This document shows positions 45,561 through 59,519 of a stretch of 64,000 bases of DNA, in pieces; the stretch's first letter is position 1, and each line of letters begins with the position of its first letter. Origin of the DNA: Ascidia mentula (lineage: Eukaryota; Chordata; Ascidiacea; Phlebobranchia; Ascidiidae). Below the pieces are notes generated by a model. That model was not told the origin of the DNA and searched no databases. It worked only from the letters and a program-made list of their open reading frames with translations. The translations under genes were made by a program, and so were the position numbers. The stretch lies in assembly GCA_947561715.1 (NCBI GenBank), contig OX387203.1:14446001-14510000 (forward strand), in the 5' to 3' direction.

Positions 45561-47980
45561 CTGGGAATATACGAACACAAAGCACTGGCTTTAAACAACA
45601 CGATCAGCCTGGATGTTGATGAGACGTTTTTTACATCATATTATTGCTGTGTTTACTTTGAAGGACCTGATGACGCCCACAGGTCGAAACATATATTCCT
45701 AACAACTGTGTATTGTGCGGATATTGCCTTACGGTTTTTTAGCATTTGAAATCATATGGGGATATACGACGTACACTCTACATAAATAAAAATGTTTCAT
45801 GGCATAGTGATACAAGCGTTCAAATCCCTCTCGTAATTTTTTGGTTGTAATATTGTCCAAAAAATACTTTTTATCAGTTTTGATCATAAAGTTGACAACA
45901 CAAATGACACGCTTGACCGACTTGTGCATCCCCGTAATAAATTGTGAAAAACTTCGTACAACTAACCTAAATCTTGGTCAGTTAAAAGCCAAAAATGTTC
46001 CGTCCTTTGCGAATTGTAAACAGCAATGTGGTTGGTTTCTCCAATGGAAGGCAATCTTCTCGTAATTCTAAACAGCAGAGAGCAACTACATGAAAATCTT
46101 TTAAAATCTCAAACTTTTTCCGAAAAGAGTTAACATTGTTGAATATTCAGCAATTATAGTATTAGAAGTATTGAAAATAAATTGTCTTTACATATCACAA
46201 AGCCAGTTATCTTTTGGTAGAAAGCATTATCCATTCTTTTCTAGTTATAAAATGCATTACTTTTTCGACCCAACATTTAAGCATAAGCAATACATATATA
46301 TTTTGCACTATATTGTATACAATAACAAACTAACGTAAGCTTACGGTAAGACGTAGGTAAGAGCTCCGCTGTAATATATCGTGATCGATATGGTGTGAAT
46401 ACGAATAATGATTTGAAACTTAGTCCCTCTGCTTAATCTTGCCCTGCCCAGACGACAAAAGGGCCTTGCACTCCATTCATTTCCAGTTGGTCCGTTCTTG
46501 ATGATTAGCTGTGTGTTACATACAAAGCAAAACCATTACAACCAGCAAGTTTATTCAATTCAATGTTTTACAGTATGATAGTTTGTATAATTAAAATCTC
46601 CTGATAGCAATATACCCAACAGAAACACATTCTACTTGAATAAGCTATACTTATGATGTTTAGAAGCATAGGCGATACATATACATATGAATATATCAAT
46701 TAAAAAGCTTGTGAAATACCGACTCCGGATTTATTACAGAACTTGCTACAGTAAGTTGAAAGTTCGTTCAATTTATTGTAACCTTTTCCACCGACCAATG
46801 GCATATTTAAATTAGAATGGCTTGGCGGCGCCGTCTAGCGGATGAACCAAAAGAAGGCACTAAAACATACGAACTTTTAATTCTTGCTGATTCTTTTTGA
46901 AAAAGGTTTGTTCATGCCAAAATAATGTTTTTGTGAAGTACATTGTTAGTTATCTAATTTAATCTTACATGCCTCGTGTTCTTACACTAGTGACCTGTAG
47001 TAACCCAGACGGACTGTACTGTTATGGAGGTGGTTTCAGTTTCTTCCTACTAAAAGATATGTTTGGGTGATAGTTTGCTTATCCAGCTATTAACGGTCGT
47101 TATATCGCTGCTTTTCTATGCCGTGTAAATATGTTTTCTATGTCGCTTGATTAATTTACTAGTGTAATAACACGAGGCATGCAAGATTAAGTCAACTAAC
47201 TAACGTGATTAATTTACAAAACTATTGAACAATAGCGTATACCGCCAGTGAACCGCAACTCACAGCTAGGTTTGAGGCAAGGAAAATGTTTAAACCCCTC
47301 CGGACTCGTGCAATCAAAGAAAACTTTCGGAAATGCGTGCAGAGCATAATGGATTAGCGATCCATCGCCTTAACCACTCGGCCACCTCATCGTCCAAAAC
47401 CTGTTGTTAAAGGAAATATTTACGTGAGATTTGTTTGAAAAAAATATTGTCTTGTAAAAACTACTTTAGTTTGGTTTAATATTGTCAGATACGATAAATT
47501 GCACTTACATAAACTTGTCAGATGGTTTGCCACATCCTTCGATAGTTCAGTTGGTGCGGTGGTAGAGTTTATCACAAATACATCTGAAGAACATAGCATT
47601 TTAGGTAAGAGTACATTTGAAAAAGAATGCATTAAACTAACTGGTTTTACAGGATTTCTCTCTTCCTGAGTATTACAAATGCCTTCACTATATTTAGTAA
47701 ATGGAAAGCATGAAAGCTTTTCCATTCAAGGTTAGCAACTGTTACAGGCGTGAACAAATTTATTGTGCTGTTTTGGTAAACTTTCCCCATCTTAAAAAAA
47801 GTACAGTACATAATAAACGCGCTGTGTTCAGGTCGCAGTACTTTAGACAACTCGGCCATCCTGTCTAAGCACTGTACTTTGTTATATTATTTAGAAATGT
47901 TCAGAAGTAGTTTTTAAGGTGCAATTACAAACCTTGTAAACGATGATTTGTTAAAAATTATTTCATCCTGGTCAATTAAA
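45561..47980. other. Spacer downstream of P3 in cassette order
   Basis: Third copy of the 17.75-19.95 kb spacer. Contains SINE copy 6 (47,238-47,396, short form, same head and tail). At about 47,155-47,190 a short stretch is the reverse complement of text near 46,965-46,985, a small local inversion. No gene is supported. Confidence 0.5.
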
Positions 47981-47989
47981 TGCCTTAGA

Positions 47990-49090
47990 CAGGATGGCCG
48001 AGTTGTCTAAAGTACTGCGACCTGAACGCAAACTGTCAAAATCACAACAAAAATTTAAAAAAAAAAACACACAAACCGGCGCAGTCTCAATCAATAATGT
48101 TGGTAATATTTACCAAGAATCCGATAAGATCGAACAAAGCTTGACACCTTCGTGTAAATCCCAGGTTTGTTTACGTTTCTACAACCGATGCCCCAACTTG
48201 TGATATCCCAGATTGTGTGATGGTTTCTGTTAAAGTCAACGCATGACAAGAACTCCCACTGTTAGTGCCGTCGTTCTGAAAAACAAGATTGGAAATTGTT
48301 TGTGGAAATATTTTTAGATAAACAAGAATGACTCGATTTAACCATACAGTAGCGAAAGTGGAAAAAGAAAAGTTCCACTCTTACTGCAGTAAACATTGTC
48401 AGGTTCAAACAGCCAAGTAGGCGACTGCAATTCTCATGGCCGAATATGCTCACTGGCGCCACTGTTGGCTATTTTTTTGGAAAATAGTGATTAGTTTATT
48501 TTTGTTAAAATGAAATACGATTTTAACTTTCATTACTGTTGTCATAGAGGTCACTTGTGTCTTGTGCAGTTTTATACATAAAGATAAAAGAAATAGGATA
48601 AGTTTGTACCACACCGAAAAGTTTTCAATTAACATGCGCTTTGTATTATTGCACCTATTAGCATTACCCCAATAAACAATTATATCCAGAACCATAGAAA
48701 ACTTCCTGCACCCCGCATTCCCCAACCAGATATTTCATACTCATATTGTGAAGAAAACTGGTTTTGTCCAAGAGGCAAACATGCTGACTGCACAAATCGA
48801 CTGCAAACATAGAAATAGGTTAGTAATGGGAAAAGTCCATGGATTACATTTGAATGAAATTGTGATTGTGTACTAAAATCCAAGCTGACATACTGCTTAC
48901 ATGGGAGAATTCGGAAAAAGTGAGATCTTGTGTAGAACGACATTGTTTCCGTAGACTTTCCACTTAAATGATTTGCAACAGTATAGTTGGGAATAATCAC
49001 ATAGTGAGGTTTTCCTCTTCAATAATTAGGTCAGAAGGTAATGTCAAGTGTGGGGTTTACAGCATCTTAATGTATGTCTCCAATGAATGG
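47990..49090 (-). pseudogene. Older diverged protease relic PF2
   Basis: Co-duplicate of PF1: the NKPGIY block (about 48,130-48,200), [16 protein letters not shown] (about 48,400-48,465), the [10 protein letters not shown] block (about 48,740-48,800) and weak remains beyond. It has lost more than PF1 at the exon 3 and exon 2 positions. Confidence 0.65.
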
Positions 49091-50374: not shown

Positions 50375-50383
50375 GTATAATTC
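50375..50383. repeat. Left 9-bp target duplication of the MULE
   Basis: GTATAATTC, identical to 57,125-57,133. Units A and B have AAATAATTC and AAATAATTA at the empty site. Confidence 0.85.
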
Positions 50384-50530
50384 GGAAAAAATACTTACGT
50401 AGACAAGTCAGGTAAGACTCGCCTTTTTCTCACCTCTCTCTCGGTCGCCTCTCTCGGTTGCCTCTCTCGCTCTCTCACGTAGACAAGTCGAGTAAGATTC
50501 TTTCTCACTTGTTTGGCGGGAACTTACAGA
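50384..50530. repeat. Left terminal inverted repeat of the MULE
   Basis: Contains two CGTAGACAAGTC motifs (near the end and near 50,480) and short GGTCGCCTCTCTC repeats. The 13-bp unit is repeated fewer times than in the right end. Confidence 0.85.
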
Positions 50531-50640
50531 TGGCTGTTAGCGTACAACTTTTGCAATTTTAGATTATGCACGGTGGTTTAAGTAGGTTAATTACCCGCTA
50601 TTACTATTAAAGTGTATTTGATTTGAACTTGTTTTTTGAA

Positions 50641-53600
50641 ATGGATGTAAAGCGTTGTGAAACAAAAGACTGTGAAACACAGGTAAGAACTAATAAACTG
50701 TTACAAGTTTTTTAAGTAAATTTTTGTTTTTAGTGGGTTACTTCAATGGAAAGTTGTCGAAATGCAATCAAAGAATTTGAAATTTCCACCATGACCAAAT
50801 TCATTCAACAGAGAAAGATTTCATATGGTAGAACTTACGGGAAAAAACTAAAGTGCATAATTTTTATAAAGATTTGTGATTTACAGACATTTCCAAAAGT
50901 TTTGTACGGTGGGGTGAGTCATTAGTTCCATATGTCATATTAAAAACTATTTGGTTGGAATGCCAACATGGAACTGATCGAAACAAAAAGTACAATGAAA
51001 AGAGAAAAATGAAAACTCCTGAATCGGTGAATATTCAAATAGTGTTTTATAGGTTGAAAAAAATTTATTTCTTTTACATTAGTTACAAGATCATCCTAAT
51101 CCTTGTAAACGAAACTTGTGTGTCCAAGGCACCAAGAAAAAAGATTGCAAAGCAAAAGAATGCATTCAAGAAGTCCTTAAATTTCCACAATTTAAAGTAA
51201 TGATGGAGTTAAAAGTTTAGTAACAAAGAAACAAGATTATTCTATTACTCTGTAGTTGTTCAAAGATGAAAAATACAGCAAAACAAAATCAAGTGCAACC
51301 ATCAAATGCCTGTTGGCTGCAAATGATAAAGGCATTGAACAAATTATGGAGTACAAAATTTGCTTTCCAAATCAAAGCGAGCATTCTGGCCATGTTTTGG
51401 GACAAGTACATTATTTTCTAAAATATTGTTTGTTGAAAACATATAGATGTGTTTAAAAACTGCATATTGATATATCTTATTTCAGGAAGCTGGATTCTTG
51501 CAACCAGTTGATAAACAATTGATTGAGAAAATTGATGAGTTAGTATCTGAAGGTGTCCGTTCTGTTGACGAAATCATGCGGCATCTCAAATATTATGTCA
51601 TTCATGAACTCTTTAAAAATAGCAGTAAACCAGCACCAACTAACAGGCGATTCTTCCCAACCAAAAAAGACATTCAATCGCATTATCATAAAGCCGTAAC
51701 TAGGCAAAGACTCTCCAAAATCGATCAAACAAATGTCCAATGCCTAGTTGATGAATGGTCAAAAAATGCAGAGAAGGGTGCCAATATTTTGTTTCGACCA
51801 TATAAAGCCGGTGTTGGTTGGAGTGATAATCCCAATGCTGAAAAATGTCAAGATAATCCACATGAACAAACGATGCTGTTTGTCCATCAATTTGCTTGGC
51901 AGCGCAGACTTCTACTGCGTTATGGTCAAGACATTTGCCTTATGGATGCCACGTATAAAACATCTAAATATGCATTGCCATTGTTTTTTGTTTGTGTGAA
52001 GACAAACGTTGGGTATCAAGTTGTTGCAACTTTCATCACTCAAAATGAACGGCAATTTGACATAGAAGAAGCACTCTCAGTTCTTAAACAATGGACACCA
52101 AATTGGAAACCAGCATTTTTCATGACAGACAAATGTGATGCTGAAATTCATGCACTTGAAAGTGTTTTTAAAGGTAAGAGATTTTGTTTATATATGTTAT
52201 GAGTGTTTCGTTACCTTGCATTTTAAGAGAGGTTAAATAGACATTAATTCTAGATGATATTATCATTTATCACTTCAGATTGTCGAGTGCTTATATGTGA
52301 CTTCCACCGAGAGCAGGCATGGGAGCGCTGGGTGAAAAAATCTGAAAATAATGTTGGGGATGATAGAGAAAGTGTGTTAGCCCTTATGAGAGCTATTGCA
52401 AATGCTGAAAGCGAGGAAAGTTTTCAAAAATCTTTAAACAAGTTTCAGTCTAGCTCTTACTGGAAAGACAACAAAAGGCTTCAAAAATATTTCACTAATG
52501 TTTGGTTGGCAGAAAAAGAAGTAAGAAATGAGGTTTAACACAGTATTAATACAGCATACATCTACTACTGTTTGCTGTGTTTTAGAGATGGTTGTGGGTT
52601 TACCGAGCAGATCGCCTAAAGGTTCTTATACGAACCAACAATGGCGTAGAAAGACAAAATCGAATTTTAAAAGAATGTCACATTCGTTTTAGAACAGACA
52701 GATCTCTTTCTGGCCTGATTACAGTTTTACATAAAGAGTTTCTGCCAGAAGGGTTGGTTAAGTAAGTTTAAATTACACTGTGTGTATGTGTAAATGTATA
52801 AAATCATTAGCAAATAGGTTACACTTGTCATTTTAGGTATCAACAAGAAAATATGAGATCCTCAAGTCACTATCGAAGCTACAGTGACTTTGTTCCCCTC
52901 TTCCTTCAAAACCGACCTCGAAAAATAGTGAAGCATTGCATGCAGCGAATTGGGGAATCATCGAATGTCACAGCAAGTACAATTGAAAGGAATGGGAATG
53001 TTTTTTCGATAAAAAGTTGCTCAAAGGATTTAAATTTCGGAGGAACTGCTGCTTTTCCCAAATGCACATGTGCAGATTTTACAAGGTATTTTTTGCCTTG
53101 CAAGCACATGTTTGCTGTTTTTGAAAAGTACAATGATGTAGACTGGTATAGTCTACCTCCATGGTACCACAGTTCAGTACATATGATACTGGATCCAGAA
53201 GTTGTTGGTCAACTATCGGTTCAACAAGCATCAAAGAAAATGGATGAACCTGCAACCAAGCTATTTGATAAACCAACACATTCAAATGATTATGAAGAAA
53301 ACAGCGTTCCTTCCAATAAAAGTTCAAAATTGCAGAAAAGCCACCATAAGTTTGTTGAAGTGACAAAGGCCTTGCTGGATATGTCCTATGATGTTACTTC
53401 ATCAGATGTTTTGGATGATGCGGCTGCAAATATTGAAACATGGTTATCAAATTTTACGAAGGCATGTTCTTTTGATGGTGGTTTTAGAATAAGTCAAACC
53501 CCCAAACTGAAGACCCTTAAAAGAAAAAGACCATCATATCCACTATCGAAAAATGATGAGCTGCCCAGAAAACAACTAAAACCAAATCCATATACTTCAA

Positions 53601-54601
53601 GAGTTGGTGCTATAGCAAACCTCATGAGACCTTTACACCAAGTCAAAACCTTGTTTCCTGCAACAGGGTTGAAACCGAAATCAAACAAGACATTTATTGT
53701 AGAACACACGGATGATGACTTTGTCACACCAGCCTATATTGCAAACAAATCACATAAAAAGGTGCAAGCCACAAACATGATAACCCCAAAGATTGTAAAC
53801 AAACGAACCAAGATTGATCAGCAGATTTTAAAAAATGGGCCACATTCTCTCTGTATGTTGGATCTAAAAACAGTTGAACCTGTTTTACCGGACAATGAAA
53901 AAGCGATGTTAAAATCTAAAGATGAAGAGTTCATTCCTGGCTGGTTAACTGATGAAGTGATTAACAGTTACTTGTGGAGATTAACCACTGCCAACAGCCA
54001 TACACTGTATGTATGTTCCATGGTGGTCCGTACATTATTACAAAAAGGCTCTATTAAACGACTGTGGAGTGGCATCTCTCTTGACAAAAAACAAATAATT
54101 TTTTTGCCTTGGATAACTAAAAGACATTGGATTCTTCTTGCTGTCAACATTGGAAAAAGGAAATTGTTGTATGTCGACCCATTACAAAATTCCTGTGTTG
54201 ACTATGTGAAAGGTCTTTCTATGGCAAAATCAATGGTCAACCATTTGCTGTCAGAAAAATTTAAATTTCAGCTTGAATCGGTGGAATCCCCAAAACGAGT
54301 ACACCAACCTGATTCTGACAGTTGTGGAGTTTTTGTTTGCATGTATGCCAAGTGGCTTACTATGGCAACAAGCCTTGAACAAAGAGGTTCTGTATACTCA
54401 TACCGCAAAGAAATATTTGATACAATTGCAGGGAAGTGCCTAAATGGTAAACCCAAAAGAGACATGTGCAAGTTTTGCAATGATAATTCCAAGACTCTTT
54501 GGGTTGAATGTACAAGATGCAAACAATGGTTCCACACAGAGTGTGTAGGCAAAACTGTTGATGATGCATCAAATGATATATCTTTTGTTTGTCCAATTTA
54601 A
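50641..54601 (+). CDS. MULE transposase with CaRF-like, SWIM, Ulp1-type protease and PHD domains
   Basis: Nine exons: 50641-50682, 50734-50827, 50887-51026, 51083-51196, 51256-51405, 51486-52173, 52279-52520, 52586-52761, 52837-54601. Phases agree; total 3,411 nt, 1,136 aa, no internal stop. Exons 2-6 resemble the CaRF (ALS2CR8) DNA-binding region: WLECQHGTDRN, CVQGTKKKDCKAKECI, EHSGHVLGQEAGFLQP. The MULE core has Asp in CLMDATYKT (~331), Asp in FFMTDKCD (~392) and Glu in NNGVERQNR (~508). A SWIM finger follows (CTCADF, LPCKHMF, ~630-650). Then comes a Ulp1/C48-type domain with His in TKRHWILL, Asp in YVDPLQNS and Cys in DSDSCGVFVC (~950-1,030), and a C-terminal PHD finger (CKFCNDN, CTRCKQWFHTEC). 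Exon 2's donor is the least certain. Expected to act in the nucleus on the element's ends; the protease-like domain may act on SUMO-type conjugates. Confidence 0.85.
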
Positions 54602-54626
54602 TCACAAAAATGTTATCATTTTTTAC

Positions 54627-54761
54627 AAACCCTATCCAGTGCAAACGCTTGGTTATCGAGTGAGGTGTATATGCCACTATGCTGTGCGAAGGTTGCAAAA
54701 CCCTAGCCAGTGCAAACGCTTGGTTATCGAGTGAGGTGTATATGCCACTATGCTGTGCGAA
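54627..54761. repeat. 71-bp tandem duplication in the 3' region of the MULE transposase gene
   Basis: Two copies, starting AAACCCTATCCAG and AAACCCTAGCCAG, begin just after the transposase stop codon. An AATAAA for the transposase transcript follows at 54,768-54,773. Confidence 0.75.
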
Positions 54762-54834
54762 CATCTGAATAAAAACAGCAATGTGAATGACACACATCAT
54801 GCATTTTGTGAATGTACTTACAGTGTCTGCTTTT

Positions 54835-56791
54835 CTATGTCTGTAAAAACAAAATTAGATCAGGTTTATAAGTTAATGAAGATAGACACTACGGGTGTTA
54901 CAATTAAGTTCTTACCTCTGGTACTTTGGCTTTATCAATCTGCACAAAAACAAAATTAGATCAGGTTTATAAGTTAATGAAGATAGGCACTACGGGTGTT
55001 ACAATTTAGTTCTTACCTTTGGCGCTTTGTCTTCGATAATCTGCACAAAAACAAAGTTGAAATGTGGTTTGTGAGTTAATGAAGATAGGCACTACAGGTG
55101 TTACAATTAAGTTCTTACCTCTGGTACTTTGGCTTATCAATCTGCACAAAAACAAAATTAGATCAGGTTTATAAGTTGATCAAGATAGGCACTATGGGTG
55201 TTACAATTTAGTTCTTACCTCTGGTACTTTGGCTTTATCAATCTGCACAAAAACAAAATTAGATCAGGTTTATAAGTTGATGAAGATAGGCACTATGGGT
55301 GTTACAATTTAGTTCTTACCTTTGGCGCTTTGTCTTCGATAATCTGCACAAAAACAAAGTTGAAATGTGGTTTGTGAGTTAATGAAGATAGGCACTACGG
55401 GTGTTACAAGTAAGTTCTTACCTCTGGTACTTTGGCTTTATCAATCTGCACAAAAAGAAAATTGGATCAGGTTAATAAGTTAATGAAGATAGACACTACG
55501 GGTGTTACAATTAAGTTCTTACCTCTGGTACTTTGGCTTTATCAATCTGCACAAAAACAAAATTAGATCAGGTTTATAAGTTAATGAAGAGAGGCACTAC
55601 GGGTGTTACAATTTAGTTCTTACCTTTGGCGCTTTGTCTTCATTAATCTGCACAAAAACAAAATTAAATTGTGGTTTGTAAGTTAATGAAAAAAAGATTT
55701 TAACTTATAATAAACATTGCAATGTAGTCACTTACAACAAACTGATTCACTTCATTATTCTGCAAAAATGTAATGGTTTAAATGTTGTCAGAGAATAAAT
55801 GTTTTCAAAACTTACCAGAAACTGTTTGGCTCCGTTTGTCTACACAAAAAAACACAATGTCATATGTTAGTAAACAAATTAGAATTTATTTTGTACAAAA
55901 GTTACTCACAAGGCACTGCCTGGCTTTGTCAGTCTGCACATAATTAATAATATTACAAATAAGTTGATGTATAACAATCATGTAGTATGAGTGTCAATAA
56001 GCAGATTGAATATGTTAGCAGTGAACTGTGCAACCAGCATTACACAACACTTACCACCGCAGTTGCTTTTCTCTTTTTAAACTGAAAATAGTGATGTACA
56101 TCACAAAAAAAACAATGATTTAATACTTTTTGAACCAAAAACAGTAATGTACAACTTGGGAAATAAATATATAAATGTGATTTATAAAAAGAGATGATAA
56201 AAACATTAAAAATTATTCCACTGGTGTTTTCATGACTTACTTAAAATACAACTTACATTTTCCTGAAAATATTGGGGTGGTGCCCATCTGAACAGCAAAC
56301 AAATGATATTAATTACTACCAGTGCATGTTCATGATAAGTGTTTAGCAATTAGGCTACTTACTTTGCCGTCTTTGGCATTTTGTTCATACTAAAAAAGTA
56401 AAACAAGTGGGTTATTTTTTTTAAGTTGATTATATGTGTAAATGCACATTTACTTACTCTTGTAGTTTTCTGAACTCGCTTTGCGTCAGGTATCTGCGTA
56501 AAATTACACAAAGTTACTTAAGCATGTCCAAAGCAAAGCAAAAGTGTATAACAATATATATACTCCACCACATTACCCTTTGGGCATATTTTTTCTTTTC
56601 TGCGAAACAAAATATATTTCAACTTAGACCTCAACATTTAAATTTCCAACTCTTACTTGTGCTTGTTTCTCCTGATTTGTACTGATTTGGTTTGCACCTG
56701 GGGCACCATTTTGGGGCAGTGAAGGCAGGGGTGCCCCAGGTGCTGTGCAAAACAATTTATCAATATTGATAGTGCAATTGCTAAAACTCAT
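54835..56791 (-). CDS. Candidate micro-exon gene convergent to the MULE transposase
   Basis: Exons in coding order: 56657-56791 (135 nt, MSFSNCTINIDKLF... to EKQAQ), 56458-56493 (36, IPDAKRVQKTTR), 56363-56389 (27, YEQNAKDGK), 56055-56081 (27, FKKRKATAV), then 24-nt exons 55910-55933 (TDKARQCL), 55816-55839 (TNGAKQFL), 55736-55759 (NNEVNQFV), 55624-55647 (INEDKAPK), 55523-55546, 55422-55445, 55320-55343, 55219-55242, 55017-55040, 54916-54939 (IDKAKVPE or IIEDKAPK), ending in an exon reading Thr-stop at 54,835-54,840. Each has a pyrimidine-rich AG before it and GTAAG or GTGAG after, and all listed exons are phase 0. A possible exon near 56,256-56,286 has an uncertain phase, and one array member (55119-55141) is 23 nt and would break frame. 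Predicted product about 156 aa: Pro-rich head, Lys-rich tail. No known domain. Splicing is inferred from sequence only. Confidence 0.55.
54900..55660. repeat. Tandem array, about 100-106-bp unit, about 8 copies
   Basis: Each unit holds one 24-nt micro-exon (minus strand) with its splice sites and about 78 bp of intron. Two subtypes alternate irregularly: one coding IDKAKVPE, one coding I(I/N)EDKAPK. Confidence 0.85.
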
Positions 56792-56974
56792 TTTCTTTAC
56801 AACATAAGTAAACCAACACAAACAAATGTTTAGTGTTTCCACGTCATAGAAAGAGGTTTATTTTTGCAACAAGACACTTTTTGGTGTCCTATGCCAAATA
56901 CGTTCCCGCCAAACTATACCCGACTTGTCTACGTAAGTCTTCTTTTCTTGCTTTAGGACGCCGCAAGCTGTAAG

Positions 56975-57124
56975 TTCCCGCCAAACATGTGTGAGAGAGC
57001 GAGAGAGGCAACCGAGAGAGGCGACCGAGAGAGGCGACCGAGAGAGGCGACCGAGAGAGGCGACCGAGAGAGAGGTGAGAAAAAGGCGAGTCTTACCTGA
57101 CTTGTCTACGTAAGTATTTTTTCC
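56975..57124. repeat. Right terminal inverted repeat of the MULE, with a 13-bp minisatellite
   Basis: Inverted match to 50,384-50,530. Inside it GAGAGGCGACCGA occurs about four times in tandem, against about once in the left end, so the two ends differ in length here. A further CGTAGACAAGTC motif (inverted) lies inside near 56,930. Confidence 0.85.
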
Positions 57125-57133
57125 GTATAATTC
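57125..57133. repeat. Right 9-bp target duplication of the MULE
   Basis: GTATAATTC, identical to 50,375-50,383, followed by TGAAAGTC as at the homologous sites in units A and B. Confidence 0.85.
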
Positions 57134-57199: not shown

Positions 57200-59401
57200 T
57201 TACTGATAATCCAAACCCGAAACTTTCGGCTGAAAAAAAATCACAAAACTTTTAATTTCATCAAAAACCATGTTTTTATGCAAATAAAAATTAAGCAAAT
57301 TCTTACCGGGTTTTCCATTTTTTTAATCTCTTCTCCCAAGACTCGAATAGATTCGGAATCGAATCCGCATCTATACAGCTCCAACTTCTCATCCACTTTA
57401 GGGAGAATCCGACAAATATTTCCAACATCTTTTCGTTCAAACTTGTTGGAACTCAGGTTGAGAATTCTCAACTATTTAAAATATAAAAATTGGTCGGAAA
57501 TCTTTGATTCAAACTTTTTTCAAGACAGAATTTTTTCTTAAAACCGGATTAAAATTAACTCCATGTTTTCACTTTTAATTAAAAAAAGTGAGTTTTGAAA
57601 AAAAATCATGGATTTAAACAAATATTTATTCTCAAAATAATGAAAACCAACCTTGGGTCCTATCTTCATAATCGCTTCACAGATCATGTTTAAAGTTTCG
57701 GAATTAAGTCCGCATTTCCCCAACCCCAGCCACAAACCGGGTTCTCGAATCCGTGAGAGGAAATCCGTGAGAGGAAATCCGCGAGAGCGAAAACATCCGA
57801 ATTCTTCAGTGGGATGAAGCTTAAATTCAACTCCCCAGGACAAGAGAGGGCGATTTCATCTCTAAATATTCGGTCAACTTCCTGTAAATCTACGAGGAAA
57901 TCTGAAACAGGGACAAGTTTATTAAAACAAACATGGCGGAAGTTTTATTAAATCAATAAAACTTTTTATTGCAAACTTCAAACAAGATTTCTTCACTTTT
58001 AATCGGATTTAAACAAGACAAGATCCAACAAATTAATCAAATACAAAAACATTAACTTACTGGAAGGAAAATATAAACTTTATCCGACAAAAAATATGCG
58101 ACCTTCCTTTAAACCTTTCAACCTGAACATTTTTGTTCCATTCTCTTCTATAAGAACAATGGAATTGCGACGTCACAATACTTATTGTGACGCAACAGTT
58201 GCGTTTACAAACACGCATCACACAGACTGGGAATAAATACTAACCTCGTAACTCGTATCCACGTAAATACAATCCATCAGGCCTTTTTTCTCGCAGGTAT
58301 TTCGAAAGTTTCTTCAACAATTTTTTCGCACGTTTGTCTGAAAATAACAAAATCAACATTTACGGCAAAAATGGAAGCCATGTATTTGGATGGGAGAATT
58401 ATTTAAACTCCCAATGTGCGTTTTCCACAAATATAACCTGCGTATATTAGATGCGTAATGAGATGCGAGACTTTCGAAACCACGATGCCAGTTTACCCAA
58501 TATAATGGTAACTTGTAGTGGAAAGTATGTGAAAGTTTAACAGCAAGCTTTTCGCGTAAAGCAACGTTGTGTAACAAATTGTAAACATGGTTTTGCAAAT
58601 CGTTCAGGGCCGGTCAATGCAGACAATGCCTTGTATTACTTTGCTGGTTACAATTATTACAGCAGAATGATTTTCTTATGTTTAGATGAGAAAAAAAAGG
58701 GGTCACAGTTATTACACTTGCAGTTGATCCTAAATTTGCATAATTTTTTTCAGAGCAATTTAGGCGACCCCTCCCTAGGACATTTCATAACAATGATAAA
58801 ACGATGCAGTGGCAGAATGTTTTCCTATCGCACTAGCGTTCTTTTGTCTGGAGCAAGTTTATCTTCTCGTCCAGCGCATGGAATTGCCATTAATGCATTA
58901 TAATGAATTTTGGATAGTAGCAAACCTTGTCCTGCATGTTTTGGTTGTTTGTGAAAAAGATCTAAAAACAGCTTCATTAATCCTCTGGGTGTTTCTGTGG
59001 TGGAATTAGAAGCAACTGAAAAGAAGTAAAAATATGTTGTTTCAAATGTTTGTGTTCGTCACCAGTGCAAGACTGACTAATTGTAAGAAAGGCAGGCAGG
59101 GTCAGTCAATGGAGACAAGTGCAACAAAACAAATATGTTAAATGACAACAGCATCTTAACTTTGGCATCAATTAGATGGTCCCAGATTTTTACACCTAAA
59201 TGCCTTGTATTACTTTACTGGTTACAAATGTTACAGCAAAGTTTTTTTTGTCTTTTTAGACAAGAAAAAAAGATTGTTTTTAATGTAACTGACTACCATG
59301 CATTTGTTCCTCATTGTTAAGTGTGGAGAATGCTAGGTCACTGGAAGCAGTCTTGACTGAGGTTGATGGCAAGGTTTTTAGACTGGAACCACTTCCATCA
59401 C
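57200..59401 (-). pseudogene. NLR-C: 3' fragment of a third NLR gene
   Basis: Exons matching the end of NLR-A, in coding order: 59297-59401 (Ser/Thr linker), 58245-58337, 57652-57901, 57307-57471, 57200-57229. The NACHT exon and everything before it are missing; homology ends at about 59.5 kb. The large LRR exon (57,652-57,901) is 250 nt where A and B have 236: a 14-bp tandem duplication (CCGTGAGAGGAAAT at 57,751-57,778) breaks the frame. The final LRR exon and stop are kept (LELYRCGFDSESIRVL). The MULE lies between the stop codon and the poly(A) signal. So NLR-C is a 5'-truncated, frameshifted remnant. Confidence 0.8.
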
Positions 59402-59519
59402 CTGTAAAAAACAATCAAGGTGATAACTGCAAATTAATGGCACTGATGTACACCAATAAGGGTTAACCCAATACGAAGGCCTCGTTTGATAATTTTAACA
59501 ATAAATAAATTAGGTTACA

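Follow-up and report, generated by a model that had tools for sequence, protein, structure and literature searches.

Within the window, i.e. the whole 64,000-nucleotide stretch of Ascidia mentula DNA that was analyzed, an intact Mutator-like element occupies positions 50384-57124 and encloses a predicted micro-exon gene. An inverted-repeat search placed the arms of its terminal inverted repeats (TIRs) at 50377-50472 and 57036-57131 (96 nt each, 96% match), and the flanking sequence holds a 9-bp target duplication (GTATAATTC) at 50375-50383 and 57125-57133, within the 8-11 bp that, together with TIRs, is expected of a Mutator-like element (MULE). The transposase is of the MULE type, with Pfam matches to PF10551 (E 1.6e-10) and SWIM (E 8.3e-06), and also contains a PHD finger (E 8.9e-07). 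Chaining of exons on the minus strand, from the transposase to the right TIR, gave a second gene of 18 predicted exons, which starts near that TIR and is antisense and convergent to the transposase. The proposal of an earlier note on this DNA that a micro-exon gene lies within a MULE is supported. The features are as follows, with the method in brackets.

50384..57124, no strand: Mutator-like element (TIRs and 9-bp target duplication)
51471..52202, plus strand: transposase part 1, with ALS2CR8, ZSWIM1-3 RNaseH-like and MULE domains (Pfam)
52811..54601, plus strand: transposase part 2, with SWIM, Ulp1 C48 peptidase and PHD finger (Pfam)
56657..56791, minus strand: predicted exon 1, 135 nt, with ATG, ending in phase 0 (exon chaining)
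56577..56599, minus strand: predicted exon 2, 23 nt, phase 0 to 2 (exon chaining and comparison with relatives)
56458..56493, minus strand: predicted exon 3, 36 nt, phase 2-2, YLTQSEFRKLQ (chaining and frame comparison)
56363..56389, minus strand: predicted exon 4, 27 nt, phase 2-2, MNKMPKTA (chaining and frame comparison)
56257..56287, minus strand: predicted exon 5, 31 nt, phase 2 to 0, WAPPQYFQEN (chaining and frame comparison)
56055..56081, minus strand: predicted exon 6, 27 nt, phase 0, FKKRKATAV (exon chaining)
55910..55933, minus strand: predicted exon 7, 24 nt, TDKARQCL (exon chaining)
55816..55839, minus strand: predicted exon 8, 24 nt, TNGAKQFL (exon chaining)
55736..55759, minus strand: predicted exon 9, 24 nt, NNEVNQFV (exon chaining)
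54845..55690, minus strand: predicted exons 10-17 in a 101-bp tandem array, all of 24 nt but for that at 55119-55141 (23 nt) (tandem-repeat search and chaining)
54822..54840, minus strand: predicted exon 18, 19 nt, ACA TAG, with the stop at 54835-54837 if the frame is kept (exon chaining)

Two copies of a 71-bp repeat (54627-54761) separate the 3' ends of the two genes, and the same repeat occurs in many copies in L018, L021, L025 and other related copies of the element. Outside the element, an inverted repeat with 47-nt arms, 98% complementary and spaced by 114 nt, lies at 47823-48030. Exons resembling those of a host gene adjoin the insertion on the minus strand (57200-59500); one open stretch among them had no match in Pfam.

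The exon lengths of the second gene are, in order, 135, 23, 36, 27, 31 and 27 nt, followed by eleven micro-exons, ten with 24 nt and one with 23 nt, and by the stop exon. Its introns are short (56-175 nt). The earlier note had listed ten 24-nt candidate exons and 27-, 27- and 36-nt ones on the minus strand of 54835-56791, flanked by a pyrimidine-rich AG and GTAAG/GTGAG, as well as a 135-nt first exon with an ATG (56791-56657), all of which were recovered. Its description of the exons as all in phase 0 was wrong for exons 2-5, whose phases run 0-2-2-2-0, exons 3-5 being entered in phase 2. The 23-nt (56599-56577) and 31-nt (56287-56257) exons belong to the gene, and their addition yields one open frame and one continuous protein. 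Phase 0 for every exon was ruled out, since the relatives then give stops and no conserved protein.

A strict scan of 54835-56791 (exons of 12-40 nt, donor GTRAG) returned 14 candidates on the gene strand, nine of them of 24 nt, and none on the opposite strand; on 500 first-order Markov sequences the same scan gave a mean of 0.5 and a maximum of 4 candidates, and in the remainder of the window, both strands together, it gave 14, none of 24 nt. Equal length among the last eight micro-exons does not count as independent evidence, because all of them belong to one 101-bp tandem repeat. The array exon at 55141-55119, with 23 nt, is an aberrant copy that shifts the frame if included, in which case the claimed Thr-stop final exon, whose ACA-TAG is indeed present, is no longer read. 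Neither AATAAA nor ATTAAA occurs in the 240 nt examined at the 3' end. The window's own copy is probably damaged and partly decayed. The micro-exon gene itself is, judging from the sequence, very probably real.

The mitochondrial COX1 of this genome shows TGA as its sole in-frame stop under table 11 and, judged by its motifs, is best translated with AGA/AGG as glycine (NCBI table 13), which makes an ascidian the most likely host. By searching the genome (196 Mb in 79 contigs), we obtained lists of 26 DNA matches and 83 transposase matches. Roughly 3.2 kb past the PHD finger was surveyed in 23 of the transposase matches, hand-chosen and including mutual close relatives. Exons of the gene were found in 12 of the 23 (L026, L027, L029, L031, L033, L034, L035, L036, L042, L044, L045 and L048) and a remnant of its 3' end in two (L025 and L028), while the scan detected no such gene in nine (L030, L032, L037, L038, L039, L040, L046, L047 and L049). 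In L030, L038 and L039 the place of the micro-exon gene is taken by a long tandem repeat with a unit of some 57-58 bp, as estimated by eye, in which exon-like units were not detected. When 17 stretches were scanned together, 24-nt candidates numbered 35 on the gene strand versus 4 on the opposite strand, and tandem arrays account for most of the 35. Further exons were found in L050, which adjoins a transposase match with 44% identity, and L051, both among the matches listed by a genome-wide splice-pattern search; since this search gave 70 forward and 73 reverse hits versus 36 and 60 for the reversed-pattern control, the genome-wide excess of the pattern is small.

The core of the gene provides evidence from outside the array. 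Exons 3-5 of seven subfamilies were compared by BLOSUM62. In the proposed frame, residue pairs scored 1.885 on average, with no stops, versus 0.257 with 7 stops and 0.194 with 9 in the two remaining frames of the sense strand; the reverse-strand frames, for exons 3-4 only, scored 0.769, -0.213 and 0.038. L, F and W are invariant in the alignment of the seven core members, and all three differences between the window and L009 in exon 3 are synonymous in the proposed frame. The window, L033, L029 and L031/L043 share the 36-nt and 27-nt exons (both phase 2-2) and an exon of 31 or 34 nt (phase 2-0). The exon before these leads from phase 0 to 2 and has 23, 20, 38 and 20 nt, respectively. The transposases of L033, L029 and L031/L043 are 49-50% identical to that of the window. 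Because the second gene is found at the same place and in the same orientation in elements whose transposases are about 43-50% identical, we consider it old in the lineage.

Modelled genes are open from ATG to stop in L033 (150 aa, 16 exons), L035 (110 aa, 11 exons), L029 (164 aa, 17 exons) and L031/L043 (226 aa, 30 exons). The L031 model leaves out one further 18-nt array exon with a differing acceptor stretch, and the L029 model has an extra 27-nt exon, requires two AAG acceptors and weak donors, and includes a 38-nt exon (AAG acceptor) picked to fit the frame. Three copies were misfits by eye, i.e. L042 (phase 1 at the end of exon 1), L034 (24 or 27 nt in exon 2) and L022 (exon 1 off by one base), and may be damaged or mis-modelled. 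AATAAA is present near the 3' end of the gene in L033, L031, L029, L026, L025, L027, L034 and L042, and absent from the examined part of L022.

After the core, each subfamily has its own, unrelated array, with exons of 18/21, 24 or 27 nt in exon-intron units of 82-112 bp:

window: 101-bp unit, IDKAKVPE-type 24-nt exons
L026: 112-bp unit, TNVTKDTE
L029: 82-bp unit, DDSAPKKG
L033, L035 and L044: 104-105-bp unit, SQTEKGAS
L036, L042, L045 and L048: 99-bp unit, RQVQKEDN
L031: 97-bp unit, 18- and 21-nt exons, RSPSVR/SRSPSVR
L051: 98-bp unit, 27-nt exons, PEQGQNVNN

Of 103 array units from five families in which a donor was recognised, 102 have an exon whose length is divisible by three, and the exception is 55141-55119 in the window; two units without a GTRAG donor were excluded from this count, which also misses units with altered acceptors. 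Two such gaps were inspected, an 18-nt unit in L031 and a GCGAGT-donor unit in L048. All three exons of the L026 array have 24 nt, with a GTAACT donor, and the L051 array has two exons of 27 nt and one of 23 nt, i.e. two of three are multiples of three. Intron lengths vary while exon lengths stay multiples of three, and unit spacing varies inside arrays; the window family, for instance, has steps of 88-89 and of 101-102 bp. As for conservation in other copies, which the earlier note had made its check, relatives retain the splice sites and multiple-of-three lengths. Close relatives differ in copy number, with 3 array units in L035, 8 in L033 and 21 in L044.

In L029 (gene-sense 1465-2121), AATAAA recurs every 82 bp beside the donor of each array intron (GTAAGTATTGAATAAA), and failure of splicing could therefore cause early polyadenylation and shorter tails there. 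The idea that array exons evolve faster than introns was dropped: segregating sites, counted without the L031 exon row (length offset), were 22 of 120 in exons versus 127 of 471 in introns (p 0.06), the opposite direction. The substitution count that had first hinted at faster exons used a reference unit ill-suited to the window family, and indel counts for that family are unreliable.

Among close copies of the window element, purifying selection is hardly apparent. Relative to the window, synonymous and non-synonymous codon changes numbered 5 and 11 in L009 (where part of exon 1 is replaced), 5 and 5 in L010, 3 and 8 in L011, and 14 and 25 in L012, and exons were below introns in identity in all four comparisons (exon/intron 0.950/0.984, 0.970/0.981, 0.956/0.975 and 0.846/0.903, respectively). 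L009 is broken at exon 1 and at the exon 2 donor, L010 has GTTAGT as its exon 5 donor, L011 retains little of exon 3 and nothing of exons 4-5, L012 lacks the start codon and the array, L027 lacks two splice sites, and few exons are left in L013, L018 and L021. Single copies would seem to decay while the gene is conserved at depth.

Domain searches gave few leads. The window protein had only weak matches in PDB (enkurin, E 0.41; Mos1, E 1.3), and with the whole window protein Cornifin alone came below the Pfam cut-off. The seven core members hit four different Pfam families, each matched by one member (best E 0.018). A profile of the seven cores ranked two Mos1 mariner sequences on top (E 0.017 and 0.018, next match E 1); this match, a weak one to the Mos1 linker, would agree with an involvement in transposition and is taken as a lead, not as proof. 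A search with PF01359 found nothing in this genome and is uninformative, because control genomes also gave nothing.

Taken together, the conserved core, the exon-like arrays and the open frames in relatives suggest an array of coding exons as the best reading of the 'minisatellite' that adjoins the right TIR. We consider it likely that this Mutator-like lineage has a conserved antisense micro-exon second gene, with a putative accessory or anti-silencing role. As predicted from the sequence, its core layout is a first exon, a short 0-to-2 exon, exons of 36 nt (2-2), 27 nt (2-2) and 31 or 34 nt (2-0), and then phase-0 micro-exons, one of them amplified as a whole unit together with its intron and with a sequence differing by subfamily. 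Transcription would run from the right end, followed by splicing of the short introns and translation, with each array step lengthening the protein tail by 6-9 residues in frame. Array length may change by unequal exchange, and exon skipping would be possible. By analogy, the product is most likely an accessory protein of the transposon, which may help the transposase (cf. maize mudrB) or counter silencing (cf. VANC).

Other readings were weighed against this one. The array is a tandem repeat, and since tandem repeats that lack exon-like structure occur elsewhere in the lineage (L030, L038 and L039), it could be taken for a non-coding minisatellite with splice-like motifs in its unit by chance, there being no gene at all. 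We regard this as highly improbable, given that the core exons, which lie outside the array, show protein conservation in a single frame and that several unrelated arrays keep exon-like units at multiples of three. A role at the RNA level, i.e. a spliced unit acting in antisense transcript processing or termination opposite the transposase with the peptide tail as incidental, would agree with the AATAAA next to the donor in nine L029 array introns, with tail peptides that are unrelated between subfamilies, and with codon variants in the L033 and window arrays, most of which alter the amino acid. Array exons that stay multiples of three and a core conserved as protein speak against it, however, making it very unlikely in our estimate. 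MULEs acquire host fragments, according to the available text of PMC6446971, and the gene might thus be captured host cargo of the Pack-MULE kind with no role for the element; this is unlikely in view of its age in the lineage, an argument that leaves a host gene as its original source unaffected.

Collagen and titin-PEVK encode protein repeats with one exon per repeat in a single phase. The exons described here are shorter, the array sequence differs per subfamily and the carrier is a mobile element. The likeness to the micro-exon genes (MEGs) of schistosomes, drawn in the earlier note, holds as an analogy of architecture, i.e. of mostly very short, frame-keeping exons. According to the available sections of one review (PMC8293314), Schistosoma MEGs are made up mostly of symmetric exons of at most 36 bp, which can be left out without loss of the frame so that many variants are possible, and these genes seem to be confined to schistosomes; a tapeworm genome paper, in its accessible part, also mentions micro-exon genes (PMC7653826). 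Of the 17 exons that follow exon 1 in the window copy (stop exon outside the count), 14 have a length that is a multiple of three and at most 36 nt. Unlike Schistosoma MEGs, the present gene belongs to a DNA transposon, has asymmetric core exons of 23 and 31 nt (exons 2 and 5) besides the aberrant 23-nt array exon, has one exon type amplified in tandem with its intron, and has introns of 56-175 nt, compared with up to 5 kb in MEGs (available text of PMC10526429). Among the matches listed in the open-licence literature, read by title and start of abstract and with Repbase reports outside the scope, we found no report of a micro-exon gene as part of a transposon.

The position of a second gene beside the transposase inside the same TIRs is as in mudrB, MutB and VANB/VANC. 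The layout of mudrA and mudrB is convergent. Among MULE accessory genes, the accessible portions of two papers describe mudrB as apparently required for integration, MutB as DNA binding and VANC as anti-silencing, with micro-exon structure going unmentioned there for mudrB, MutB and VANB/VANC (PMC6446971; PMC2725143). As described in the available text of PMC6446971, Rehavkus elements combine a PHD finger with a minisatellite located ahead of the 3' TIR; Phantom occurs in tunicates, and in aphids it has a minisatellite after the transposase ORF. The present element likewise has a PHD finger in its transposase and an array (54845-55690) before the TIR, a likeness of described features. The repeats of Rehavkus and Phantom are called minisatellites in that source, in whose available text the word intron is absent and exons are unmentioned. 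A Tribolium satellite study (PMC10218199), in its accessible part, places a 164-bp repeat at the termini of Rehavkus-1_TC and does not use the word exon. An arthropod MULE study takes Rehavkus as outgroup (PMC13359780, part of the text). Splicing may turn a DNA minisatellite into a variable-length tail, new per subfamily, and the minisatellites of Rehavkus and some Phantom elements could be similar unrecognised micro-exon genes, a suggestion that we make tentatively and with some doubt.

If the preferred reading of a coding exon array is correct, micro-exon architecture exists inside a chordate mobile element, tandem duplication of a whole exon plus intron offers a simple route to micro-exon genes, and repeat masking can hide coding exons. 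The relatives with 3, 8 and 21 array exons would make the effect of tail length directly testable.

Lastly, 24-nt exons could be made out by eye in L019 (minus strand, 3130-2690), i.e. TNQAKRVI (with a GC donor), TNEVNKTM and PKKSKETE, close to a window-family fragment on the opposite strand.
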